From a virus, in IMG/VR virus record IMGVR_UViG_3300031974_002728, positions 1 through 33,656 of that record: 33,656 bases of DNA. One strand, written 5' to 3'. Below, in pieces: positions 6,774-30,559 of the stretch; position 1 is the first letter of the stretch, and every line of letters begins with the position of its first letter. The notes below the pieces were generated by a model. That model saw only the letters and a program-made list of their open reading frames with translations, made no database searches and had not been told where the DNA came from. The translations under genes and the position numbers were made by a program.

Positions 6774-7112
6774 TCAAGCGATTGAAAGGGCTGAACCCGT
6801 GGTCACAACATCGGAATCACCAACCGCGTTGCTTGCGGAAACTCCAAAAAAGTAATTTCCTGCAACGGATTCTTCATAAGTCAAAACAAATGTTTCACCC
6901 GTGGTTGTTGAGTCGCCACTATTGGTTGAAGTTAATGCAACACTTGGGGCACTTCCTGTTGTGGCTTCACTTGCCGACCATGCACCACCCGAAAGGGTCA
7001 CATTAGCAATGTGAGTGCTTGCGGAAGAAAGCGGGCTTGTTGAGCCTTTATAAACTTTGAACGCGGTTTCATTATTCGCGTTGTCTTGCCATGATATTTG
7101 TACAATTGCCAT
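6774..7112 (-). CDS. Fibronectin type III-domain virion protein
   Basis: A 112-residue protein that is essentially one fibronectin III-like beta sandwich. It opens with VQISWQDNANNETAFKVYKGST, has a central strand pattern, and ends with YEESVAGNYFFGVSASNAVGDSD, the typical F/G strand signature. Such domains decorate phage surfaces and tail fibres and may bind carbohydrate weakly. It follows the giant fibre gene, is preceded by the TAGACA element (7128-7133), and is likely a virion or fibre-tip protein. Confidence 0.75.
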   Translation of the reverse strand: MAIVQISWQDNANNETAFKVYKGSTSPLSSASTHIANVTLSGGAWSASEATTGSAPSVALTSTNSGDSTTTGETFVLTYEESVAGNYFFGVSASNAVGDSDVVTTGSALSIA

Positions 7113-7120
7113 GACTAAAC

Positions 7121-7135
7121 GCGGGCTTGTCTACT
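7121..7135 (-). promoter_or_regulatory. TAGACA start-proximal element upstream of the Fn3 gene
   Basis: The minus strand carries AGTAGACA followed by AGCCCGC, with 15 bases between TAGACA and the ATG at 7112. There is no Shine-Dalgarno sequence. One of seven similar elements before virion genes. Confidence 0.5.
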
Positions 7136-10100
7136 CAACTAAAATTTGTGTCATAGATGGTGCCATCAAATCCAATCGTTTCAAAATTGTTTTCCCCACC
7201 CGAATAACTATTTGAAAAAGGAACTTGATTGCCTTTGATGACAATTTGCCCCGTTCTTCCTTCTTGATTTCGACCGACAACAAGCAAGTTGTATTGACTC
7301 CAAGGTTGTTCCGCGGTGGTGGTGGTGGGGTCAAAAGTTTGAATTGATAAAATCTTACAAATTGCACCCGCTGAAATATAATTTGCGGTGTTCATTGTTG
7401 AAGTCTTCGCGTTGGTCAAAATATATTTCCCAACCCATGATTGTTCGGGGTCACTTCGGTATTTGTCCCACGGGTCGGAATAGTTGGATTTTTGATCCAC
7501 AATGACCAAATCTTGAAAGCTAATATTCCATTTAGATGTGACATGATAAAACGGGCGAGCGGGCACCACTTGAGTGTTGGGCAAATCTTTTGCGGGTATC
7601 AACTCCCCTTCCCCACCAACTTGCACCCAATTGGGTGGCACGGGTGGAAAGCTTGAAACATTTGCCCCGCCAAAATACTTGACTCGATTGACCCCCCATT
7701 TGGGGTGAAAATCGGGCAAAGGATTGCCTTTTGCAATGGTTGTGACCCGCAAGCCTATGTCATCCCCTAAATCGTTTTGAATGTTATCAAAAGCGGGTTC
7801 AACACATTGCCAATGATTCAATGCAATTTGGAAGTTGTAGCCCGAAACTTGAGAGTATCTTGCGTCAAAAGATATTCTTGAATCACGCAAGGTGAAATGA
7901 TTGCCAATTGAATTTCTCACAATTCTTTCAACCTTCATTGATGAATTGCTTTCAATGTATTCAATCACCCGATCAATGGGTGAATAAATGTGGGCATTTG
8001 GGTGGGGGTTCTTGTACCCGCCAAACTCCTTCAATGCAATTGTCCAATTTTCAGTTGGGTTCACCAACGAATCGGGCACATGGGTGTATTTGTATTGTTG
8101 CAAGCTTCCAACCCCACCATGTTTTGCGAACAAGCCCGCGTGGTATTGAGTTAAAAACCCGCGTGTGTGTGTGTCGTTGTTTTGGTACGAATCCCGCAAT
8201 GAATTTTGTGCAATGTAGTTGTCAATGTATTCGGGAGCGTCAAAAGTGTAAGGCTTGCCCCGCATCAATGTTTGGCTCCCCTTCCCCAAGAATGGCAACA
8301 TTAGTTGTGGCAATCTTTTGATGATATTTTGACCATTTGCGTTTTTCTCAACAATTGAGTTGGTTTTGCCAAGTTCTTCAAAAGACAAATAAAATTCACC
8401 CCGCTTGTTGGCTTCTTGCCATAAACCATTCACAACCTTAAAAACTTCAACTTTGATGCCTTCGGTGGTTTGTATCAATCCACCTTGTGAGGTGGTCAAA
8501 ATGGTACCATCTGAAAGTTTGATTTTTTTATCTTGGGCAAATTGCCAAGCATTCAATGTCAATTTAATATAATTGTAAGCACCCGTGGAAATGTTGATTG
8601 AATATGGTGCCATTACCGCTTTGAATTTTTCTACATCAAAGTTGTTGTCCCAAGTCGGCAAATAAAATTCAATTAGTTCACTTGGATGGGTTGTTACCCC
8701 GCCATAATTTACTAAACCTTCTTCAAGTATTTCATAATTTTGAAATTCACTAATATTGGCAAACAATTGTCTTTGTTTGTGGAAATTGTGCCCAATATTA
8801 AAACCCCAAACCCATTCTGAACCTTCACCCGTGCGGGCGGGTTGAACTACACCTTTCCAATCAGTATATGCACCGCGGGCAATGAATTTTTCGGTTAAAT
8901 CTACATCATCCAAATAAACTTTTTCCATTGTCAATGAATAGTCAAATTCACTTGGGAAAGTTGCCGAAATAGTGCTTGCGGTTAAGTTGCTTGGTGGAAT
9001 TTGTGGTTTGATGTCACCAAGTTCAATTTGGCTTGGTTCTTTAAGTGTAGAAAAGCACAAAAAGTTTGTGGTTGATGCACCTGAACGACACTTCAATTGA
9101 AAAGCCCAATCCGAACCGATGGGGTTTAAATTAAACTTGTTTAGGTCGCCCGCAAATCCCGCGTCATCGCGGTCTAAATCTGCACCATTTGCCCAAACAT
9201 AGTTTGATTCCCACCAATTGAAAGACCCTTGTTGCTCGCGACTCCACAAATTGTTGGATATTACCGAAGAAGAAAAATTTGTGACATCGTAATATTGAGA
9301 AAGCTTTTTAATATTAAAACTTCCATTATAAAGCGTCAGTTCAAATTCAAATTCATAATGACCACCCGCCACAATTTCATTGATTCCAACAAGTTCAATT
9401 TTGTACATCGGGTCATAATCGGTTTGCTTATAAAAATAACCATTTGCATATTCTACCCTCGATGTGGTTGGTTCATAAACTTGCCCAATGGTGTCAAAAC
9501 TTATCCAATTATTCAACGGGCAATGCCTGTAATCTCCCCGCCATTCATGGTCACGAAAAAAGCCTCTTGGCAACATCAATTCAATTCTTGGATTTAATCC
9601 AAAATTAAAATTTCTTGAACTTACCTTAAATTGATAATTGAACCCTGTTTCAAGTTCAGTTCGCCACCTTAGTGTTTTCCTATATCCAAGCTTGGTGTCT
9701 ATTTCATCGGGGGCGTTGGTTTTAATGTCATATACATTGTAAGTTTCATTTCCAATGCCAAGGGACGATTCTTGGTGGTTTGCATCAAAATTTGTTGGTG
9801 TTATCCAAGTGAAGGTTTTGTTGTAAGTTCCCGTGGTTGAATCATTATTTAAAACAATCTCAAACACATTTGAATTGCCTTGGGAATCTGTTGCCAAAAG
9901 CTTGATTTTGAAAGTGTCTTTGTGGTAAAAATCTTGATTTGCTGAAAGTGTAAATTCATCAATTTGTGACCCAACAATGTTTGAAACACTTGCATTGATT
10001 CTTGAATCAACGCTTTGAATCGACCATGTCACATCAAGCGGGCTTCCGTTGCCATCTAAACATGATAAGTTTGCAACTATGTCATCGGCAAAAGTTTGAA

Positions 10101-12681
10101 TGTCTACTTGGTCAACATCTCCGCTTATATTGGTTCCTAAATAGTCCCCATATCTCCAAAAATAACGATCATAAGGTTGATTAATGTTGAATATTTTTGA
10201 AACTAAAGTTTGCCCCGAATAATCAAAAACAATGTAAGGAATTTCTTCGGCATCAATAAGGCTTGGGGTGTTCGGGTATGAAACCGCTTCAACATCGCTT
10301 GGCGGGTACCCTAAAAGACCCGCAACGGGCGTTTGTGGGGCAATTGGCGGGGTGTTTGCTGAAACCTCAAGTGGGGGCAACACAAATGGATCAAGTGGCA
10401 CCACTTCATCAATATTGGTGGGGTGTTTGTATTTGTATGGGTGGCTTGCGTCTAAAATATTGGTCAAGCCCCACTTGTGGGCAAGGTAACCTTCGACCTT
10501 TTGCCTTTTGTCCAATTCAAGCTTGTTCTTGAAAAAGACCATTTCGGCAAGATACATTTTTTGCGAATACGGGGCATTATTCCAACCCCCGAATCTTATA
10601 TATTCAGTATTAAGTTTTAGATCATAACCTTTTGAAGCGGTTTCAAGCCCGTTCACATACAACTTGAGTTCATTCAAAAGATTTGATGCAACAAAACTCA
10701 AAAGATAAAAATTTTCAATTTGTAGATTCACCGAAGATTGCACCCGTGCGGGGTTTGAGCTTCCCGCATCAAAAATGAATTGCCCACCCGTGTGTGGTGC
10801 ATGGCAAGTAAACCTTTGACTTGTCCCACCCGCGTTCACAAATAAGTGGGAATTTTGATAGGTCAAAGGCTGAAAAACCACAAACATTTCAATTTCACCA
10901 CCTTCGGGGGTAATACTTCGCCCAAACACATTTCCGCTAATATTGTAGCAAGTTAGACCCGTGCTGAAGTCATACAACGGCAACCCGTTTTGCGTTAAAT
11001 CTGCAAAATAAGTTGGGTTTCCTTGCGGGGTCACTTCGTGGCTTGTGCCCGCGTGGTTGGTTAAGTTCACAAACTCTTCACTTTCTTGGCTTGCATCAAT
11101 CCAAAGGCTTGGGGAATATCTTGCCACATCCCATTCAAATATGACCGCGTCAATGTTGCTTGGCGTTGCACTTGGCAAAACCATTTCTTCCGCTTCAACA
11201 AGGCTTGGGGCAATTTGGGGTTTTTGAATGACCCGATCTGACACAAATGGCAAAAGCTTTATTTGGTTGTCATAATATGAAACAAATTCCCCCCCATAAT
11301 CTTTCAAACCCAATCGACCAATTTGGTTGTAATTGACGAAACTTTTGTTGGTAAAAAAACTAAAATCAACACCACTTATTTGGTTGCCGTTTGCGTCCAA
11401 AGATGGGTTTGCGTAATCATAGGCAAAATGCAAGTTGCACCGCAAAATCAAAGAATCCGAAAGGTTGCCATCATGGTTGCCCTTGAATGTTTTCCCTTCA
11501 GTTGCCCAAGTCGGCATGAAATATTGAACCCCATTGAATGTGTGGGAAGATGTTTGCCCAAATTCTGAAAATTCAAGGGCAATATCTTCGTCTGTTGTGA
11601 GCGGATAAAACCCATCAATTGAAAGAAAGTTGCCAACTATTTCAAAAGAAATGCTTTCCGTGTTTGTTGGGTTATCAAGATTGGGGGAATTGAAAGCGTT
11701 TGTTGTGTTTCGGGTGTATATTGGAAACCCGTTGGGGTCGCGTTGAAAACCATAACTTTTTGAAACACCCGTGCCATTGTAGACAAAAGGAATTTCTTTA
11801 TCATTTTGCAATTGCCCGTTTGGCAAAGAAAACTCTTCCAAATCCAATTGCAAGAACCGATGGGCTTGATTTTTTTGCTTGTAGTTTGTTACCTCAAAAG
11901 ATGTGACCGACTCAACCGAAACGGGGTCAACCACCCGCACCGCAAAAACATATTCAACGGGTTGTGGTGGGAAAAACTTTTCTTCCGAACTTACAAGGTC
12001 GGGTTCGTTCGGGGCATCCCGCAATCTTCTATTAACCCAAAAAACTTGTCTTGGCTTTTGTGGGACAATGCTTGATTCAACCAAGCTTGGTTCACCAAAT
12101 GGGGGCACGCTAAAATTTCCCGCCCGCACATTGGTTGGGGCAAAACTAAATTTTCCAAGCTGAACATTTCTTGGGTTTTGGGGCGTAGAAATTGCCGAAA
12201 GTTCAATTGGGGGTGATGGGGCAATGATCAGTTCAGAATCAACCACAAGCGGTGTATTTGGGGCATCAAGTTCAATCTCAATTGATTCACCAATGCGGTT
12301 GTAAAGCTTCAAGCTTTGTTGGACAAGCGTGCGTGAAAAGTCGGTTGCGGTTATTTGAATTTCCAATTGCGTGGAACGCGACAACGAACCAACAAGAAAA
12401 GTTGCAATTTCGGGTTGGTCTAAATCTAAATTAAACACCCAATTGCCGTTCACCAAAGTTCCTTGAACGGGGGAAAGCAATTGCCCTTGCTCAAATGTGC
12501 CAATGGTCAAATCAAGTGACAAGTTTTGATAATTTTTCCATGTTGGCGTTTCTAATAGTTCAACCTCAAAGTTGAAGTTGTCTTTGTAGAAAAAAGGCAA
12601 AAGCCCTTCCCTCAATCGAATTTCGGGTGATTTTATGACCGCACGGGTGGCGGGCTGAAATGGGTCAATGTATATTTTCAA
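7135..12681 (-). CDS. Giant tail fibre/receptor-binding protein with lectin-like domain
   Basis: An 1848-residue protein. Residues 1 to about 132 resemble the whole upstream 136-residue protein (a beta-rich domain ending in a strand-helix like RTLVQQSLKLYNRIG). Residues about 135-250 and 485-513 are proline-rich linkers with units such as GEPSLVESSIVPQ and APSLVEAEEMVLP. Residues about 514-750 are a LamG/concanavalin A-like domain ending KVEGYLAHKWGL...HPYKYKHP. Another linker follows (about 755-825), then an immunoglobulin-like region (about 850-950) and a long beta-rich C-terminal half with no recognised domain. The start is TTG at 12681, overlapping the previous stop as TTGA; no ATG fits. 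Its position after the tail-tip genes and its size mark it as the main host-recognition fibre. Confidence 0.85.
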   Translation of the reverse strand: MKIYIDPFQPATRAVIKSPEIRLREGLLPFFYKDNFNFEVELLETPTWKNYQNLSLDLTIGTFEQGQLLSPVQGTLVNGNWVFNLDLDQPEIATFLVGSLSRSTQLEIQITATDFSRTLVQQSLKLYNRIGESIEIELDAPNTPLVVDSELIIAPSPPIELSAISTPQNPRNVQLGKFSFAPTNVRAGNFSVPPFGEPSLVESSIVPQKPRQVFWVNRRLRDAPNEPDLVSSEEKFFPPQPVEYVFAVRVVDPVSVESVTSFEVTNYKQKNQAHRFLQLDLEEFSLPNGQLQNDKEIPFVYNGTGVSKSYGFQRDPNGFPIYTRNTTNAFNSPNLDNPTNTESISFEIVGNFLSIDGFYPLTTDEDIALEFSEFGQTSSHTFNGVQYFMPTWATEGKTFKGNHDGNLSDSLILRCNLHFAYDYANPSLDANGNQISGVDFSFFTNKSFVNYNQIGRLGLKDYGGEFVSYYDNQIKLLPFVSDRVIQKPQIAPSLVEAEEMVLPSATPSNIDAVIFEWDVARYSPSLWIDASQESEEFVNLTNHAGTSHEVTPQGNPTYFADLTQNGLPLYDFSTGLTCYNISGNVFGRSITPEGGEIEMFVVFQPLTYQNSHLFVNAGGTSQRFTCHAPHTGGQFIFDAGSSNPARVQSSVNLQIENFYLLSFVASNLLNELKLYVNGLETASKGYDLKLNTEYIRFGGWNNAPYSQKMYLAEMVFFKNKLELDKRQKVEGYLAHKWGLTNILDASHPYKYKHPTNIDEVVPLDPFVLPPLEVSANTPPIAPQTPVAGLLGYPPSDVEAVSYPNTPSLIDAEEIPYIVFDYSGQTLVSKIFNINQPYDRYFWRYGDYLGTNISGDVDQVDIQTFADDIVANLSCLDGNGSPLDVTWSIQSVDSRINASVSNIVGSQIDEFTLSANQDFYHKDTFKIKLLATDSQGNSNVFEIVLNNDSTTGTYNKTFTWITPTNFDANHQESSLGIGNETYNVYDIKTNAPDEIDTKLGYRKTLRWRTELETGFNYQFKVSSRNFNFGLNPRIELMLPRGFFRDHEWRGDYRHCPLNNWISFDTIGQVYEPTTSRVEYANGYFYKQTDYDPMYKIELVGINEIVAGGHYEFEFELTLYNGSFNIKKLSQYYDVTNFSSSVISNNLWSREQQGSFNWWESNYVWANGADLDRDDAGFAGDLNKFNLNPIGSDWAFQLKCRSGASTTNFLCFSTLKEPSQIELGDIKPQIPPSNLTASTISATFPSEFDYSLTMEKVYLDDVDLTEKFIARGAYTDWKGVVQPARTGEGSEWVWGFNIGHNFHKQRQLFANISEFQNYEILEEGLVNYGGVTTHPSELIEFYLPTWDNNFDVEKFKAVMAPYSINISTGAYNYIKLTLNAWQFAQDKKIKLSDGTILTTSQGGLIQTTEGIKVEVFKVVNGLWQEANKRGEFYLSFEELGKTNSIVEKNANGQNIIKRLPQLMLPFLGKGSQTLMRGKPYTFDAPEYIDNYIAQNSLRDSYQNNDTHTRGFLTQYHAGLFAKHGGVGSLQQYKYTHVPDSLVNPTENWTIALKEFGGYKNPHPNAHIYSPIDRVIEYIESNSSMKVERIVRNSIGNHFTLRDSRISFDARYSQVSGYNFQIALNHWQCVEPAFDNIQNDLGDDIGLRVTTIAKGNPLPDFHPKWGVNRVKYFGGANVSSFPPVPPNWVQVGGEGELIPAKDLPNTQVVPARPFYHVTSKWNISFQDLVIVDQKSNYSDPWDKYRSDPEQSWVGKYILTNAKTSTMNTANYISAGAICKILSIQTFDPTTTTAEQPWSQYNLLVVGRNQEGRTGQIVIKGNQVPFSNSYSGGENNFETIGFDGTIYDTNFS
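11932..12264 (-). repeat. Proline-rich linker repeats in the fibre gene
   Basis: The coding sequence holds consecutive 12-15-residue units built as proline, small residues, then a short hydrophobic strand. Examples are SPPIELSAISTP, FGEPSLVESSIVP and APNEPDLVSSEEKFFP. At DNA level related units appear on the plus strand as copies of AAGGCTTGGGG at about 10258 and 11205. Confidence 0.6.
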
Positions 12682-20120: not shown

Positions 20121-20378
20121 TTTTGGTCTGTACCAAACGCAACGAATCTTTTTGCCATCTGCCCGTTTCTTTGTCCCGTTGTGTTGTTCAAGCTTTCCTT
20201 CTTCAAATAATGCACGAATGTATCGGTTGCCACGAACAACACCCAAATTGTATTTCTTGAAAATTTCTTTTGCGGTCATCCAACCTTTGCCTTTGGGTTC
20301 GGTCGATTCATTTTGTTGGGCTTGCTCAAGTGCTTTTGCCCAATTTAGATCAAAATCATTTTTTCGATTACTTGCCAT
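20118..20378 (-). CDS. Small winged-helix DNA-binding protein
   Basis: An 86-residue protein. The second half (GWMTAKEIFKKYNLGVVRGNRYIRALFEEGKLEQHNGTKKRADGKKIRCVWYRP) reads as a winged helix-turn-helix with a basic wing, so it probably binds DNA. I chose the ATG at 20378 because AAAGGGGGG precedes it; the frame extends to 20417 inside the phosphoesterase gene. A regulator-like gene within the tail operon, next to a metallophosphoesterase, looks like part of a small accessory insertion. Confidence 0.75.
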   Translation of the reverse strand: MASNRKNDFDLNWAKALEQAQQNESTEPKGKGWMTAKEIFKKYNLGVVRGNRYIRALFEEGKLEQHNGTKKRADGKKIRCVWYRPK

Positions 20379-21079
20379 TGACCCCCCTTTCCTTTTCGGG
20401 CTTGATACACTTCCCAATCATTGCCATTGACCCAACCATACGCGAACCCGTGGGCGTGCGTGATTCGGTTTGGTTGCATCACATTATATTCCATGTCTAA
20501 TTGAGCCAAGCAACCAACGCCCCGCCCTTCCCCGCCACCAACTCTTTGAATGGTTGCGTGATGAATTGCGTGGGTGTGACCATGCAAAACTATTCCCCCT
20601 TGGGGTGAATAGATTTCAGCGTGCTTCTTTGTCGCCATAATGCCCGCACAATACCCGTGAACCATACGCACTTTGCCAAGGTCAAAAAAACCCGTGTCGC
20701 TTTTGTATGGGATTATTTTGCAACGATTCTTTCGGCATCGCTTTTCAATATCTTTGACACCTTGTTTGGCGTAATCTGAAACAATCCCATTTTCGTGAAA
20801 CCTTGCAACATCCCACAACCTCTTGTCATGGTTTCCTAAAAGAAAAACATTTGGTTGGAAGTTTCCAAGAAATTCCAAACCCGCTTCAACATCCGCTTCC
20901 ATTGACATTTGCTTTTCATTCGCACCCGCGTTTCTTCGGATGTTCCGAAAGTCAAAAAGATCACCACCAAAAACCCGAACATCGGGTTGCCATATTTCGC
21001 AAAATTTTAAAAGTTTCTCAACCGCATCGGGGTCGTTCATGTCCCCATGAAGGTCGCTTGCAAAAATGAATTTTTTCAT
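20345..21079 (-). CDS. Calcineurin-like metallophosphoesterase
   Basis: A 244-residue enzyme with the full set of metallophosphoesterase motifs: DLH (residues 9-11), GGDLFD (38-43), GNHD (82-85), VHGY (140-143) and GHTH (167-170). These bind two metal ions and hydrolyse phosphodiesters or phosphomonoesters. The substrate is unknown; candidates are nucleotides, nucleic acid 3' ends or signalling nucleotides. The gene overlaps the preceding tail gene as ATGA and is followed by a winged-helix gene. A cytoplasmic enzyme inside the tail operon is out of place and looks like an accessory gene expressed late. Confidence 0.93.
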   Translation of the reverse strand: MKKFIFASDLHGDMNDPDAVEKLLKFCEIWQPDVRVFGGDLFDFRNIRRNAGANEKQMSMEADVEAGLEFLGNFQPNVFLLGNHDKRLWDVARFHENGIVSDYAKQGVKDIEKRCRKNRCKIIPYKSDTGFFDLGKVRMVHGYCAGIMATKKHAEIYSPQGGIVLHGHTHAIHHATIQRVGGGEGRGVGCLAQLDMEYNVMQPNRITHAHGFAYGWVNGNDWEVYQARKGKGGQWQVIEKMILI

Positions 21080-21510
21080 TCATCGGGGGTTGGCAAGGTG
21101 AATCTAAATTTGATTGAAAAATCAAGTTGTGATTGGTCATGGTTTGTCTCTTCAAATTCCATGTGCGTTGCCCCCGTTGGTTGAATGTCAAAAACATGGT
21201 AAGAATCAATCCCGTGGGTGTGGTTTAATAGCAAAGAACGAACTTTCCCAATTCTTTGGTGGTGGGTTTCTTCTTCTTGTCGGTAAGTATTCACGAACAC
21301 TTGCAAAACACCCTCGTGGGAATTGTATTCATGCTTGCCGTTTATGACTTGGCGGGTGTCATCCAATGCACCCGTGTAATTAAAAACAAGTTGAATATTA
21401 TCAACCCCCAAATCTTGAAGCGTGCGAGTGCGGAATGATTCAAGTTTGTTTTCTGCAAAGCATTCAACAAGGTCTTGTTCAATGTTCTTTTCGTATTCAA
21501 AAACGCTCAT
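21076..21510 (-). CDS. Tail terminator/completion protein candidate
   Basis: A 144-residue protein. The core GVLQVFVNTYRQEEETHHQRIGKVRSLLL and the final strand LDFSIKFRFTLPTP follow the pattern of gpU/gpZ-like tail terminators, which have a strand-helix fold and cap the tail tube at the neck. Its place directly after the head-tail joining fusion agrees. The ATG overlaps the upstream stop as ATGA (21507-21510). Confidence 0.65.
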   Translation of the reverse strand: MSVFEYEKNIEQDLVECFAENKLESFRTRTLQDLGVDNIQLVFNYTGALDDTRQVINGKHEYNSHEGVLQVFVNTYRQEEETHHQRIGKVRSLLLNHTHGIDSYHVFDIQPTGATHMEFEETNHDQSQLDFSIKFRFTLPTPDE

Positions 21511-23654
21511 GGGGTGTAATACTTATATGGGTGAGATGTTGGAAGATCAGAAAGCAAGCCCCACTTGCGGGTTAAATATCCCTCAATTTTGTCGCTTTGG
21601 TCTTGGGTTATGTTTTCCGTTAGTATTAACTCACCCCAATCTGAATCGGCAATGTTTGTGTATTTGTTCAACCTTGTTTGCATGGTTGTAATTTTATTCA
21701 ATACACTATTTGAAACATTGGTGTTGTATGCCGTACCATTCAACCAAGTTGAAGCCCGCAAGTTTGGTATGTCCCACTCAACCGCAAGCATTACCCATTG
21801 GTTCAATATGTTTGTGCTTGTTGGTGATAAATGCGTTCCCGTGTGAACATACCATTCGCCCGTGAAGACACCCGCACCACCCGTGCGATTGAAAAGAATC
21901 AATTGCAACCCATTTCCTTGTGCCAAAAAAAGCGTGTCATGGGCATCAAATTGAATGACCCTTGCAACAAAAAACCACTTGTGGCGTGCGGTTGAATCGA
22001 ATGCAATATTTGTCACATTTGTTGCATCAACATTTCCATTGAATCGGAAAATGTTTTTTCCGTTCTGCACATTTGTGATTGACCTAATTGATGACCCGCT
22101 TGATGGGGTGTATTGGTAACCATTCCCCGACTTGTCATTGATTGTGGTGACGGGTTCATTCCAACTTGTTCCCGTGATTCCATGACTTGTGCGGTCATCC
22201 ATGTCAAGCCACACAAGTGTTGTCATGGTTGATGGTTCAAACTCCGTGCTTGTGGGGGCGGTGTTGGTAACGGCACGAACCATTGCAACGCCCGCATCTT
22301 CGCCCGCGTCATACATATTGGGGGCACTCAAATGAACATCTGAATAAGTGCCATCATGGTGGTCACTTGCCTTGATGAAGTCATAAAAAGATTGCTCGCG
22401 TGCCAATGTGTTGAACGCATCATTCACCACCATGTCATTGCCGTTTTGATCCGCGGGGGCAACAAAGGTTGCGGGCATATTAGTCAAACCAAGCTTGGTT
22501 TCTATTTCGGAAAGTAAGGTTTCAAGGTGTCCTTGATATGTGGTGGGGTCATTGCCCCCGTTGGACTCGCCTTGGTACCATAAGAAGCCTTTCCAATTAA
22601 CATTCAGCCCAAGGGCTTCAAACTTGGTTTTTGCGTCATCAATCGCATTGACAAGCCCGCCCCAAGCTTCGGTTGTTTTGGTGGTGTCCCAATCGGTGAA
22701 ACTTGCGTTGTCATCAATAGTGCTTGCCCCAACCGCATATTTTACAACACCAACTTTGTTGCTTGTGGTGTAATCCGTTTTAATCTTTTTTGCAAAACCC
22801 CATTCAATGCCAAATTGGGTTGCATTTAAAGTTGTGCTTGTTCCTTCACCGCGTGTTTTTCCAAGTTCCATTGAATCGGAAATGCCCGTGAAGTATTGTT
22901 GGTCTGTTGCGTCACTTGTGCTTGGTGCGTGCCAAGAAGTGTGAAAATAAAAATCTTCAATTTCGGTTGATTGGGTGGTTGTCAAATCCGCAATTGCTGA
23001 ATGCCCGTGGGCGTTGCTTTGTCCCGCAATCAAAAACAAATCAACAAATTCAACCTTTGCATCAACAAGGCTTGGGGGTTGTGCTTCAAGTAAACCTTCA
23101 ACAAGGCTTGGGGCATCGGGCAAGGCTTGCCCCAAAACCTCACTTGGTGCCGTTGGCAAAACTCCACTTGTCAAATCTTGTGGGTTTGCGGGCGTGCATT
23201 CAGCGACCAACAAAGAAGGTAAGTTTGCCAATAAGCCCGAAATTACATTGACGGGGCGTTGTGCTTGAATGCTTTGCAAGTCTTCGCTTGCAACATCACT
23301 TGGCGGGGTCGGTGAATAGAATGGGTGCTTTGCTTCAAACTTCGGCAAACATTCAATCGTCAAAAGAAAACCTGCATCATTTTCAAAACTTTGAACTTCA
23401 TGCACTCGCCAAACTTTATTGCGTAGTTCCAAAGTGTCGTTGGCACGGGGTCGCTTCCCCAAGTCGAAACTTTCATTTGATTGAATTGTGATTTGGCATG
23501 ATTCATTTTTGAAAAAGCCCACATCATCCATGCCCGCACTTTGAGTAATTGCCCCCACAAGTGCTTTTGTCTTCTTCTCACCATACCAACAAAGTTCCCC
23601 TAATGTTTCGCACTCAACATCATTGAAACCCGCCAATGCTTTTGCCCAATCCAT
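21507..23654 (-). CDS. Head-tail joining-like protein fused to carbohydrate esterase and lectin-like domain
   Basis: A 715-residue protein of four parts. Residues 1 to about 108 have the length and strand pattern of lambda gpFII-type head-tail joining proteins (LVGAITQS, then RANDTLELRNKVWRVHEVQ...GFLLTIECLP). Residues about 116-203 are 11-14-residue proline linkers (APSEVLGQALPD, APSLVEGLLEAQ). Residues about 205-465 are a sialate O-acetylesterase/CE6-like SGNH hydrolase with GQSN (211-214, Ser213), WYQGESN (359-365) and SDVHL (438-442, Asp439 and His441). Residues about 478-715 are a LamG-like domain ending KIEGYLTRKWGL...HPYKYYTP, closely like the fibre's. Its gene position matches gpFII. 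It could form neck appendages that deacetylate surface polysaccharide. Confidence 0.88.
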   Translation of the reverse strand: MDWAKALAGFNDVECETLGELCWYGEKKTKALVGAITQSAGMDDVGFFKNESCQITIQSNESFDLGKRPRANDTLELRNKVWRVHEVQSFENDAGFLLTIECLPKFEAKHPFYSPTPPSDVASEDLQSIQAQRPVNVISGLLANLPSLLVAECTPANPQDLTSGVLPTAPSEVLGQALPDAPSLVEGLLEAQPPSLVDAKVEFVDLFLIAGQSNAHGHSAIADLTTTQSTEIEDFYFHTSWHAPSTSDATDQQYFTGISDSMELGKTRGEGTSTTLNATQFGIEWGFAKKIKTDYTTSNKVGVVKYAVGASTIDDNASFTDWDTTKTTEAWGGLVNAIDDAKTKFEALGLNVNWKGFLWYQGESNGGNDPTTYQGHLETLLSEIETKLGLTNMPATFVAPADQNGNDMVVNDAFNTLAREQSFYDFIKASDHHDGTYSDVHLSAPNMYDAGEDAGVAMVRAVTNTAPTSTEFEPSTMTTLVWLDMDDRTSHGITGTSWNEPVTTINDKSGNGYQYTPSSGSSIRSITNVQNGKNIFRFNGNVDATNVTNIAFDSTARHKWFFVARVIQFDAHDTLFLAQGNGLQLILFNRTGGAGVFTGEWYVHTGTHLSPTSTNILNQWVMLAVEWDIPNLRASTWLNGTAYNTNVSNSVLNKITTMQTRLNKYTNIADSDWGELILTENITQDQSDKIEGYLTRKWGLLSDLPTSHPYKYYTP
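23046..23309 (-). repeat. Proline-rich linker repeats between head-tail and esterase domains
   Basis: About seven consecutive units of 11-14 residues are encoded, for example APSEVLGQALPD, APSLVEGLLEAQ and PPSLVDAKVEF. On the plus strand CAACAAGGCTTGGGG occurs twice here (near 23063 and 23100), and similar copies lie in the fibre gene. Confidence 0.7.
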
Positions 23655-23669: not shown

Positions 23670-24701
23670 TTACGCCTCAGCCTTCAAGTCAACCGAACCG
23701 ATTGTGTAGGTTGCTTGGATGGTAAAAGTTTGTCGCATATCTTGGGAATTTTGAACCAAACTTTTCAAGCCACGCGAAACAACAAAGTTGTCGGGTGCGT
23801 CTGTTAGTTGGTCATATACATCGGAAGCTTTGTTGATGATTCCCCAAAGAAGTTTTCTGCCATCATTTATTTCGTCAGCGGTTAGGTCATGCAAATCACT
23901 TTGTTTGATGCAAAGATAAGTTTCATTTCCTTCAAGATCACCCGCGGAAGAATCGGCACCATTCGCAAGTGAAGTTTCAGCAAGCAAACTCACAAGGTTT
24001 GAATTTGTGTTTGCAATAGTCAAAGAAACCAAATCTTGAATGTCTTGGCTTGCACTTCCAAAAGCGGTAAGAACTTGTCCTTGGGTATAATTGGCAATAG
24101 TTACCGCGGGAACGCTTGGCACTTCATCACTTCCACCCGAAAGGGCTTCATTAGTCAAAAGAATAGACAAGGCACCCAACGCATCCGCAACCGAAATGTC
24201 AAACACATCGGTAACGCTTGTTGGTGCGTTTGCAAATAATGTTTCAATGTCGCCTTGGGTTTTGTTACCAATCACATCGTCAAGGTCAATGACAAGGCTT
24301 GTTCCCGAAACGCTGATTGCGTCACTTGCTTGGCTTTCGTTGATGGTTACATCAAGACCCGAATTGGCACCCGCAACAACCGCGGTGTATGTTACCCCGT
24401 CCGATGTCAAGGAGTCCGCGGTAGCGGGAACGCTTGGCACTTCATCCGCGGTTTCCGCGGTCAAGGTAATCTTTTGATCTGCCAAGGCAAATGAAAGCCC
24501 GCTTGCGTTATTGTCGCCAAGAATTTCAACGCTTATCAAATTGCCTTCTTCGCCCGTTGCTTGTGCGGTAAAGGTCAACCCGTCATGGGTCAAGTTGGCT
24601 TGAACCGCATTTGCCCCAACGACTTCTTGAAGGTCGCCCAAGGCATCCGTTGCAATGAACTTTGCGGATGGGAAAATTGCGGTTGTGTTTAATGTTGCCA
24701 T
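23670..24701 (-). CDS. Repeat-containing virion protein next to major capsid
   Basis: A 343-residue, acidic, beta-rich protein with internal repetition. LTHDGLTFTAQATGEEGN and LTSDGVTYTAVVAGANSG are parallel segments, and EVPSVPA occurs twice as a linker (around residues 87 and 192). The C-terminal 90 residues form a different, more helical domain (DEINDGRKLLWGIINKASDVYDQL) ending in strands. It is the first gene after the capsid and has its own AGGGGG ribosome binding site. It may be a capsid decoration, head completion or tail tube protein; I cannot choose between these. The EVPSVPA linkers recall the PSLVEA linkers of the next gene. Confidence 0.8.
   Translation of the reverse strand: MATLNTTAIFPSAKFIATDALGDLQEVVGANAVQANLTHDGLTFTAQATGEEGNLISVEILGDNNASGLSFALADQKITLTAETADEVPSVPATADSLTSDGVTYTAVVAGANSGLDVTINESQASDAISVSGTSLVIDLDDVIGNKTQGDIETLFANAPTSVTDVFDISVADALGALSILLTNEALSGGSDEVPSVPAVTIANYTQGQVLTAFGSASQDIQDLVSLTIANTNSNLVSLLAETSLANGADSSAGDLEGNETYLCIKQSDLHDLTADEINDGRKLLWGIINKASDVYDQLTDAPDNFVVSRGLKSLVQNSQDMRQTFTIQATYTIGSVDLKAEA
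24106..24128. repeat. 23-bp direct repeat, copy 1
   Basis: The plus-strand segment beginning GCGGGAACGCTTGGCACTTC is identical to 24424-24446. It encodes the EVPSVPA linker in the capsid-adjacent protein, and shows recent duplication of a linker-plus-domain unit. Confidence 0.85.
24424..24446. repeat. 23-bp direct repeat, copy 2
   Basis: Identical to 24106-24128, 318 bp away, in the same reading frame (318 is divisible by three), so recombination between copies would delete or add 106 residues in frame. Confidence 0.85.
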
Positions 24702-24720: not shown

Positions 24721-25596
24721 TTAGGAAGAACGCTTGATTGTGTCGATGTTGGTTGGCTTAATAACCTTTACACCAAAATTGGTTGTGAACGCACCGAAGT
24801 GGTCGCCCTTGCTTGCATCATAATATCTGCGGTATGCACATTGGATGCCCAACCCGTCAATGGTGAATGGGGTGTATTCTTCAAGAGTTGCCCCACCCGA
24901 AACATCGGGTTGCCTGTTGACGATTACGATTGCATCGGAAGAACAAGCAAAAGAGTGAACCTTGCCAACCGCGGTGTTGTTCGCTGAACACACATGGGTT
25001 TGCATTCCGTAAAGTTGACCGAACCGACCACCTTGGACGGGGGAAGCTCCAAGCGTTTCAATTGTGCTTGGTAACAAGTTGGTGTTTGCAGAAGTGGAAA
25101 GAATTAAGTGGCGATCAAATGGGGCACCCGCACCATCAAGGTTGCCCGCCAAATTTTTGATGTCAGAAATGGCAACGCTTGCAACATTCTTGCCCGTGGA
25201 TGAAACCGCGGATGAAGCAACTTCGGCATCAATAACACCATAAACTAAATTCATCAAATAGCGTCCAAACTCATGGGCGTTTTGCTTTGCATAACTTTGA
25301 AGAGTTATGGGGCTTTTATTCATGTCATTGTCAAGCAAGTGAAATGGCTTGATGTGTTCGGCAATGTCAACTTGCACAAGTGAAACATCTGTTTCAGCAC
25401 TTTGGTTGTACCCTGTTGCATAAGCGTATGGGCGTGCGGTGTCATCGGTGTCGATGACGGGAACTTTGACGCTTGCTTGTCTTCCAACAACTTCGCTAGT
25501 GATGTTCTTGGTAAATGCGTTCATTGGGGCGAGTAATTCGCCAAGCACGGAAACCGCGGTGGAAATAGTAAGTTCGGAAGTAACAGAATTAGCCAT
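24721..25596 (-). CDS. Major capsid protein
   Basis: A 291-residue protein with the features of a major coat protein. The N-terminal helix region (TISTAVSVLGELLAPMNAFTKNITSEVVGRQASVKVPVID) leads into a long spine-like segment (SPITLQSYAKQNAHEFGRYLMNLVYGVIDAEVASSA). An A-domain-like region follows (DRHLILSTSANTNLLPSTIETLGASPVQGGRFGQLYGMQTHVC), then a C-terminal strand set (FTIDGLGIQCAYRRYYDASKG). Position right after the protease-scaffold gene confirms the role. It should form the HK97-fold icosahedral shell. A TAGACA element lies 34 bases upstream of the ATG. Confidence 0.9.
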   Translation of the reverse strand: MANSVTSELTISTAVSVLGELLAPMNAFTKNITSEVVGRQASVKVPVIDTDDTARPYAYATGYNQSAETDVSLVQVDIAEHIKPFHLLDNDMNKSPITLQSYAKQNAHEFGRYLMNLVYGVIDAEVASSAVSSTGKNVASVAISDIKNLAGNLDGAGAPFDRHLILSTSANTNLLPSTIETLGASPVQGGRFGQLYGMQTHVCSANNTAVGKVHSFACSSDAIVIVNRQPDVSGGATLEEYTPFTIDGLGIQCAYRRYYDASKGDHFGAFTTNFGVKVIKPTNIDTIKRSS

Positions 25597-28628: not shown

Positions 28629-30296
28629 TTACTTTTTGTCAATTGACTTCAGTTTGCGGATTGCCCAATTGATGCCCGAAGTTCCACCCCAAGCATCCCA
28701 CATCAAGCCACCGCATCCCTTATCATAAGGAACATCTTTGTTTTGTTGGTGGCGTTTAAACGATGCCATGCGGGCGATTGTATCCCGTGAAATTTTTTCA
28801 CCCTTGGCAAGTTGGTTTGCCCGTGCCCACCCAACGGGTGTTCCGCACTTGGGGTTGTTTTCTTCTTTGTACTTCAACGCACGCTTGGCGTTGTTTGATG
28901 CACTTTTTGGGTAATCGTTGTAAGTTTCCGCAAGGCTTAATTCTTCCGCTTGTTCTTCTTCAGTCCCAACCTTCATTGCTTCGGCTAAGAGTTTGCGGTC
29001 GCGGGCAATCTTTTTGACTTCAGTTGCAAAATCCAAGCCATTGTTGGCAAAGATGGTTGATGGGCTTGCTAGCCCCGACTCCATCAATAAAGCATCGGTT
29101 TGAGCGTCTTGCCTTCGATCAAGTGTGGGTGAACCCGTCCATTGAAAATTGAATTCTTCGCGGGTTGATTCATCCATTGCGGGCAACTCTTCGTTGTTTT
29201 CCCATTTGTATTGTCTCCATCGGCAAAGCCTACGCAAAAATTGGTTTTCCATATCATCGCGAATTTGACCGAACCGATGGTTGGTGACCGCTCGCGTTGC
29301 CTTGGAAGAACTGAAACTTGCATTTGACCAACCAACCAAATTTTCCATTGTGATGCCGACCGATGAACACGCAAAAGAAATGAGGGAAACCAAGAACTTG
29401 TCAACCCCGTCAATCGCACCCCCTTGAATGGTTTGCACCGACTCGCCTTGTTCCAATAAAAGCAAGCTCCCCGAATAAAGTTTTTTATATGTTGAACGCA
29501 ATGGTTCTTCCGAAAATTCTGAACCATCCCATCTTGCCGAAGTTGGTGCATTGGATGTGATAAAACCCGTTAAGGCACTTGAAGTTTTTACCTTTGCCGT
29601 GAATGCACTTTGAACTTCGTGAATGTCTTCCAAAGTCTTGAACGCGGGGGCAAGCATTGGCGTGCCCCGTAGTTGCCCAATACGGGTGCGGTGGGCAATG
29701 TGTATTACATCACGGGCGGGAATGTATGAACCCGCGGTGTAATCAACAACCCCATCTTTTAAGCCCGCAACGCGGTAGGCAATGGGCATTCCAAATTTGT
29801 TCAACACCAAACCTTCAATTTCGTTTTCGCGTTTGTCATCGGAATACATACCCGACCCAATGCGTTCACTTGGCAAAAGTTGAATTGACCCGCCCTTGGT
29901 TAAGATCACAAAAACTTCACCCGCAAGCAACAAATCGGAAATGATGCACGCAAGAACCCGTTGCATTCCTTGTCCCGTGATTTCACAATTTTTGAAATAT
30001 TTGCCAAAAGCTTTTTCGCGTTGTTCGTCCAAAGGTTTGTTTTCGGTCGATGCGTTGAATGTACAATTGCCAAGGTTGGAAACAAACACTTGAACAATCG
30101 CCCGACAAATTGGGTTGTTGCGTTCAAGGTCACGAAGGTTTGAAAGAAGTTCTAAACGACTTCCATGATCCAAAACCTTTTCTTCGGATTCAACAATCCG
30201 CGAGCGTTCTTGGATTGCGTCATGGGTTCTTCTCCAATGGGGCTTTGCTCCCCCATATCCAAATTGCACGGGGTTTCCAAATTCATCCAAGATCAT
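28629..30296 (-). CDS. Portal protein (lambda B-like) with C-terminal extra domain
   Basis: A 555-residue portal of the lambda gpB type. It forms the dodecameric ring at the capsid vertex through which DNA passes. Residues about 20-430 carry the family pattern: LLSNLRDLERNNPICRAIVQVFVSNLGN, then DLLLAGEVFVIL, then LLPSERIGSG, then YIPARDVIHIAHRTRIGQLRGTPMLAPAFKTLEDIHEVQ. The last 95 or so residues form a separate small domain (ASNNAKRALKYKEEN, CGTPVGWARANQLAKGEKISRDTIARMASFKRH, WDAWGGTSGINWAIRK) that I have seen appended to other phage head proteins. The start overlaps the upstream stop as ATGA. Confidence 0.93.
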   Translation of the reverse strand: MILDEFGNPVQFGYGGAKPHWRRTHDAIQERSRIVESEEKVLDHGSRLELLSNLRDLERNNPICRAIVQVFVSNLGNCTFNASTENKPLDEQREKAFGKYFKNCEITGQGMQRVLACIISDLLLAGEVFVILTKGGSIQLLPSERIGSGMYSDDKRENEIEGLVLNKFGMPIAYRVAGLKDGVVDYTAGSYIPARDVIHIAHRTRIGQLRGTPMLAPAFKTLEDIHEVQSAFTAKVKTSSALTGFITSNAPTSARWDGSEFSEEPLRSTYKKLYSGSLLLLEQGESVQTIQGGAIDGVDKFLVSLISFACSSVGITMENLVGWSNASFSSSKATRAVTNHRFGQIRDDMENQFLRRLCRWRQYKWENNEELPAMDESTREEFNFQWTGSPTLDRRQDAQTDALLMESGLASPSTIFANNGLDFATEVKKIARDRKLLAEAMKVGTEEEQAEELSLAETYNDYPKSASNNAKRALKYKEENNPKCGTPVGWARANQLAKGEKISRDTIARMASFKRHQQNKDVPYDKGCGGLMWDAWGGTSGINWAIRKLKSIDKK

Positions 30297-30559
30297 AGCT
30301 TTGATGTCACCACAATGGTGCGTTTGAAGGTTGGGTCAATTGGTTCACCTTGGACACGGGCATTGATTATCGACCATTCTTGTTCAGCCCGTTCAAGTTC
30401 TTGCCTTATCTCTTCTTGCATTCGGAAAGTTTTTGAATTTCCCGAAGAAGAAACCGAAACCATGCCCAACGATTCCAAGCGTTCAAGCGTCTTCTCAAGT
30501 CGGTCAATTCGCTTGGAAAGAAATGTCAATTTGTCTTGGTCGGATCGGTAAGCACTCAC
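30293..30559 (-). CDS. gpW-like head-tail connector
   Basis: An 88-residue protein starting with GTG at 30559. A coiled-coil helix (FLSKRIDRLEKTLERLESLG) leads to a short hairpin (MVSVSSSGNSKTFRM) and a second helix (QEEIRQELERAEQEW). This helix-hairpin-helix order, and the position between terminase and portal genes, match lambda gpW, the protein that binds the portal after packaging and builds the neck. A TAGACA element precedes it. The assignment is by pattern and position. Confidence 0.75.
   Translation of the reverse strand: MSAYRSDQDKLTFLSKRIDRLEKTLERLESLGMVSVSSSGNSKTFRMQEEIRQELERAEQEWSIINARVQGEPIDPTFKRTIVVTSKL

Follow-up and report, generated by a model that had tools for sequence, protein, structure and literature searches.

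We analyzed the IMG/VR virus record IMGVR_UViG_3300031974_002728, of an uncultured, long-tailed bacterial virus, over its entire length of 33,656 bases (hereafter the window) and focused on a gene that joins a predicted head-tail protein to a predicted carbohydrate esterase and a lectin-like domain. The genes of the minus strand follow an order of the siphovirus type, with terminase, portal, capsid protein, neck and tail genes, and tape measure. The gene of interest (open reading frame 23654 to 21507, minus strand) lies between the capsid gene and those of the putative tail terminator and tail tube. It encodes a chain of 715 amino acids (aa) with no internal stop and overlaps the following gene, that of the terminator, by ATGA; no clear Shine-Dalgarno sequence was seen upstream of its ATG. 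An earlier note had read the product as a neck protein of the type of gpFII, the head-tail joining protein of lambda, bearing an esterase and a lectin-like domain, and the results below support this interpretation.

Four parts of a single chain

The chain comprises an N-terminal domain (N-domain), a stalk, an esterase domain, and a C-terminal LamG domain (Table 1). The esterase is predicted to be a SASA/CE6-type SGNH carbohydrate esterase of the deacetylase type. A profile search over residues 205-465, which the earlier note had proposed, returned the Pfam family SASA (PF03629) over residues 205-453 with an E-value of 2.5e-21 (76.8 bits, for a curated cut-off of 24.8), and profile matches in the PDB were obtained to 2apj, 9h4u, and 1zmb. 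The three motifs that had been pointed out are in place, namely GQSN (211-214, with Ser213), WYQGESN (359-365, with QGE at 361-363), and SDVH (438-441, with His441). They supply the Block I GQSN, the Block III QGE, and the Block V His of SASA/CE6, all of which are present in the window. SASA enzymes are recognized by the QGE block and by a Gln that adjoins the catalytic Ser (PMC9487903). Two complete neck esterases are available, that of the window and that of a relative (L015), and both retain the Ser, the QGE, and the His. The two proteins are 54% identical over the esterase, against 34% over the N-domain and the LamG domain, which together with the kept motifs is expected of a constrained enzyme or of a recent cassette exchange.

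Relatives of the esterase were found in 33 viral loci, where the esterase-LamG cassette is mostly carried by fibre-like proteins; this holds for related cassettes in about 25 viral contigs besides the window. Such proteins, e.g., those of L032, L042, L050, and L057, have 29-54% identity over the esterase, and the Pfam domain Mtd_N was confirmed in two of them, L032 and L057, and fell just below the cut-off in L050. As a host-surface module the cassette is thus of a known kind, and what is new here is its anchor. In two more distant phages (L052:2588-11539 and L054:3605-8487, both on the plus strand), esterase-LamG genes are found within the block of head-tail connector genes instead of downstream of the tape measure gene, a possible hint of neck attachment in these phages as well. 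We also observed an SGNH-like domain lacking GQSN before LamG in tail-region proteins of relatives (L026:4161-6263, plus strand; L027:4581-7163, minus strand). PF03629 matches only the former (E-value 2.3e-5), and the domain is possibly a pseudo-esterase serving binding.

The stalk, between the N-domain and the catalytic domain, is built of 12-residue repeats of the kind PLAPSNLVLDTT. A Pro-Pro spacing of 12 stands out over shuffled sequences in the window (z = 4.7) and in the relatives L004, L005, L006, and L013 (z from 6.4 to 9.7, the latter in L013). In L015 and L016, which have a short stretch of this kind, the signal is weaker (z of 2.3 and 3.8), and family members differ in their number of repeats. 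The proline linkers described earlier are hence present, in an account that was incomplete, as they are made of these repeats. The C-terminal domain ends in the motif IEGYL..KWGL..HPYK. Its LamG-like character holds at the level of the family, where Laminin_G_3 (PF13385) matches five of the seven aligned members (best E-value 1.4e-4); the window's own domain has no match in Pfam. A tail-tip protein of 1848 aa in the window (7135-12681, minus strand) has similar 12-residue repeats (z = 3.1 for a spacing of 12 in one stretch) and a second LamG domain at residues ~527-755. Similar repeats were also seen, by eye, in the tail proteins of relatives.

Table 1. Positions in the window of the four parts of the fusion protein and of the head and tail genes discussed in the text.
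Feature	Position	Strand	Basis
Residues 1-108, predicted gpFII-like stopper (head-closure) domain	23331..23654	-	AlphaFold, Foldseek, standalone homologues
Residues 109-205, stalk of 12-residue repeats, PxxPSxL/V type	23040..23330	-	Pro-Pro spacing
Residues 206-465, predicted SASA/CE6-type SGNH carbohydrate esterase	22260..23039	-	Pfam, PDB profile matches, motifs
Residues 466-715, LamG / concanavalin-A-like domain	21510..22259	-	PF13385 matches among aligned members
Putative tail terminator (gpU position)	21076..21510	-	Position kept in 8 genomes
Putative tail tube protein (gpV position), 111 aa	19762..20097	-	AlphaFold/Foldseek, position, conservation
Major capsid protein	24721..25596	-	PHROG 283 major head protein, E-value 3.9e-5
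Candidate gpW-like adaptor, 88 aa, upstream of portal gene	30293..30559	-	Position only

A predicted stopper-like fold at the N-terminus

The AlphaFold model of the N-domain, built from nine family sequences, has a mean predicted local distance difference test (pLDDT) score of 78.6 and a predicted template modelling (pTM) score of 0.69. It consists of a helix (residues 3-18), a beta-sandwich, and a long inserted hairpin. When compared with the PDB by Foldseek, its best match was chain f of 8xow (E-value 4.2e-4), from a lambda virion portal/neck entry, with 114 residues, as many as are resolved in gpFII. Chain M of 8gtf, with 102 residues, from the R4C stopper-terminator entry, ranked second (E-value 7.5e-4), and neck or connector chains of Chi, Pam3, SaPI1, GTA, XM1, Sf14, Pa193, NF5, and Bas63 came next. 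The structure prediction that the earlier note had called for has thus returned neck, connector, or stopper-like chains of phages in nearly all of the top 15 matches, and not the tail-tip or fibre adaptor that the note had named as the alternative. In the assembled particle, gpFII is present in six copies and has a helix (4-24), a sandwich (25-41 and 63-107), a hairpin (46-62), and a C-terminal loop (108-117) (PMC10721106). The order of these elements is that of our model, and the fusion starts where the loop of gpFII does. The N-terminal helix of the R4C stopper contacts the adaptor (PMC10276861).

A complete gpFII gene elsewhere in the genome would compete with this assignment, and none was found. 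Each of the genomes searched has a single copy of the N-domain, and a six-frame search of the genome with PF05354 (Phage_attach, the gpFII family) found nothing else. The protein encoded at 19762-20097 matches PF05354 weakly (E-value 0.15) and was considered as a rival stopper. It was rejected because its predicted fold resembles tube, baseplate, and Dit proteins more than stoppers: the first matches of its model (pLDDT 76.9) are Mu tube-length chains, baseplate proteins, and Dit proteins, and the lambda neck chain does not appear before rank 43. Its position and conservation make it the likely tube protein.

Recurrence of the fusion among relatives

No close relatives were found by searching with the whole 715-aa protein, nor by tblastn of the N-domain against 50,697 phage records, and no relatives were confirmed among genome contigs searched by the major capsid protein and by the tube protein. 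The relatives used in this work are those from capsid-protein searches. In all of them the N-domain gene lies between the capsid and the terminator/tube genes, as in the window, which is the place of gpFII in lambda-like phages and bears out what the earlier note said of the gene's location. In L011 and L012 the N-domain is found bare, with 106 aa, at this same place, which shows that it can stand alone as a complete protein. The proteins of L004, L005, L006, and L013 (444-532 aa) have the N-domain, the stalk, and LamG without the esterase. The full series of N-domain, stalk, esterase, and LamG is found again in L014/L015 (one virus, 678 aa), and L016 has the N-domain, the stalk, and the esterase, where its contig ends. 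A search for the fusion in metagenomic phages, which had been suggested, has therefore been fruitful, and since the junction of N-domain, stalk, and esterase recurs on contigs of other metagenomes, the intact chain of the window is not a chimera or an assembly error.

For the pair L005/L006, the ratio of non-synonymous to synonymous substitution rates (dN/dS) was 0.09 in the N-domain, 0.20 in the stalk, and 0.11 in LamG, similar to the values of 0.11 in the capsid and 0.07 in the terminator. The fusion chain of this pair is thus under purifying selection throughout. The tree of the major capsid protein was mostly unresolved. In a concatenated tree, which has few rows (eight), the window and L015 are placed on opposite sides of one supported split (95/96), and this suggests cassette exchange. 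In the two genomes with a bare stopper, a neighbouring terminator-like protein (L012:7829-8569 and L011:5706-6230, both on the plus strand) has a C-terminal extension made of the same PSN-type repeats, to which L012 adds a domain of ~75 residues.

Among the neighbouring genes, the putative terminator is assigned by its position and by one weak match, that of a single family member to the tail-terminator PHROG 176 (E-value 0.023). Comparisons by hhalign of the terminator and tube alignments with lambda U and V were not significant, nor was the match of the candidate adaptor to PHROG 118, head-tail adaptor (E-value 0.7). A protein of 343 aa is encoded between the capsid and stopper genes (23670-24701, minus strand). 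It has 229-466 aa in relatives, and its homologue is missing at that place in L011/L012. In a distant group (L051, L052, L053, and L058), a homologue of this protein precedes a bare protein of 104 aa that occupies the place of the stopper and is weakly alignable to the N-domain (hhalign E-value 0.0017, in one pair only). A metallophosphatase-like gene (20345-21079, minus strand) is inserted between the terminator and tube genes; it is found at the same place in L011 and L012, and none was seen there in the other relatives. Finally, the window (6774-7112, minus strand) and the distant L052 lineage (L052:9000-9329, plus strand) have in common a small FN3-like protein, which adjoins tail-protein/fibre genes in both.

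Proposed neck arms and competing explanations

We consider it probable that the phage's only stopper carries a host-surface device fused to its C-terminus, with arms that bind and deacetylate polysaccharide. Residues 1-108 would form a gpFII-like ring, by analogy of six copies, between the adaptor and the tail terminator, and this ring would close the filled head. The stalk of each subunit would bear the SGNH/SASA-type O-acetylesterase and the lectin-like LamG domain outward, so that they are exposed around the neck of the virion. The arms would then bind acetylated polysaccharide of the host surface or matrix and strip its acetyl groups, and may thereby hold or loosen the particle in this layer during the search of the tail tip for its receptor. 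That the C-terminus points outward is plausible, since the stopper of Staphylococcus phage 812 has an external beta-sandwich and termini that touch decoration proteins outside the neck (PMC12886913).

Several observations weigh against this reading. The sole Pfam match of the N-domain, PF05354, is below threshold (E-value 0.22, 12.5 bits, for a cut-off of 26), and the hhalign comparison of its alignment with lambda FII was not significant. Membership of the gpFII family is thus not established by sequence, and the similarity is one of fold only. The folds of stoppers, terminators, tubes, and Dit proteins are themselves related, and therefore a fold match is not by itself unique. Two members of the N-domain family weakly match a PHROG named 'minor tail protein' (E-value 0.0025). 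The esterase of L015 has NNVH in place of SDVH, with the other motif residues kept; EcNanS likewise lacks the Block V Asp (PMC9487903). The proposal of a gpFII-type N-terminus has accordingly held for the predicted fold, the gene place, and the single copy, and failed for a sequence match to PF05354 or lambda FII.

Other explanations may account for part of these data. There is a modest chance that the neck arms are adhesins adding avidity, with an SGNH domain that is barely or not catalytic and has no role in deacetylation. This would fit the four relatives that have stopper, stalk, and LamG without an esterase, the tail-tip proteins of the records of L015 and L004, where an SGNH-like domain lacking GQSN precedes LamG, and the absence of the Block V Asp from the neck esterase of L015. 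It fits less well with the catalytic residues kept in both complete neck esterases and with the excess of identity over that domain. We find it improbable that the N-domain, a beta-sandwich resembling that of stoppers, was recruited to serve as an adaptor of the tail or tail tip, with the esterase at the tip as usual. The folds related to it throughout tails, the 'minor tail protein' match, and the cassettes on fibre-like proteins elsewhere speak for such a recruitment, but the PDB fold matches are almost all to neck chains, the gene keeps its place before the terminator/tube genes in all relatives, and a bare copy exists while no other stopper candidate was found.

Processing of the chain, whereby the stopper domain is cleaved off and the esterase-LamG part freed as an enzyme or decoy, is likewise improbable. 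The length of the stalk and its conservation, the lowest of all parts, favour such a scheme, but no signal for processing was seen (cleavage was not directly tested), and both the repeats and the domains have been kept, with purifying selection acting on them in L005/L006. As for a sequencing or assembly artefact, we found no points in its support, and it is refuted by the independent contigs, given the same architecture in separate metagenomes (L014/L015 and L016) and a related one in L004, L005, L006, and L013.

The proposed esterase-bearing stopper can be compared with several known systems. Lambda gpFII / Hc1 shares with it the N-terminal helix, the beta-sandwich, and the inserted hairpin in ~110 residues, the gene place between capsid and terminator genes, and the top fold match, which comes from the lambda neck. 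In contrast, gpFII stops at residue 117, whereas the window chain runs ~600 residues further, and no significant sequence similarity of gpFII to the N-domain was found. In phage 812, too, the stopper has an additional domain on its outside and termini reaching the neck decoration, but the decorations are separate proteins, and the text consulted describes no enzyme or lectin (PMC12886913). In the neck passage structures (NPS) of lactococcal 936/TP901-1 phages, arms at the level of the neck are similarly made of a ring domain, a stalk, and a carbohydrate-binding domain, and some C-termini are akin to a binding module found in carbohydrate esterases; they differ in a BppU-like anchor in place of a stopper, in a non-essential collar, and in that the text consulted describes no catalytic SASA domain (PMC6669499). 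Judging from the model, the window protein lacks the BppU-like N-terminal ring domain that defines NPS, as no entry among the top 50 Foldseek matches of the N-domain is described as BppU. The fibre-like SASA and LamG proteins of L032, L042, L050, and L057 have the same cassette, anchored by Mtd_N or other fibre-type N-termini and not by a stopper domain. EcNanS, At4g34215, and CAC0529 share the SGNH fold family, the GQSN and QGE blocks, and the catalytic His, but are cellular enzymes, stand-alone or glycosidase-linked. We found no paper in the open-access literature in which a stopper is joined to an enzyme or lectin. Phages with appendages on the neck, with extended stoppers, or with esterases on their fibres have all been described; the combination on a stopper appears to be new.

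Sugars of the host surface are usually handled by fibres at the tail tip, and the stopper, a small and essential protein, acts as the valve by which the filled head is sealed. We give about even chances to the broader proposal that the stopper of this phage group is an exchangeable platform, its repeat stalk loaded with LamG or with esterase and LamG, exchanged with the tail tip and fibres, and replaced in L011/L012 by the terminator extension, the neck being a second adsorption organ. If the neck-arm interpretation is true, the neck would be a fixed, low-copy place for displaying host-surface functions away from the tail tip. Neck arms would become predictable from sequence, as 12-residue repeats that come after a gpFII-like N-domain, and the function of neck appendages would become testable through a catalytic domain that can be assayed.
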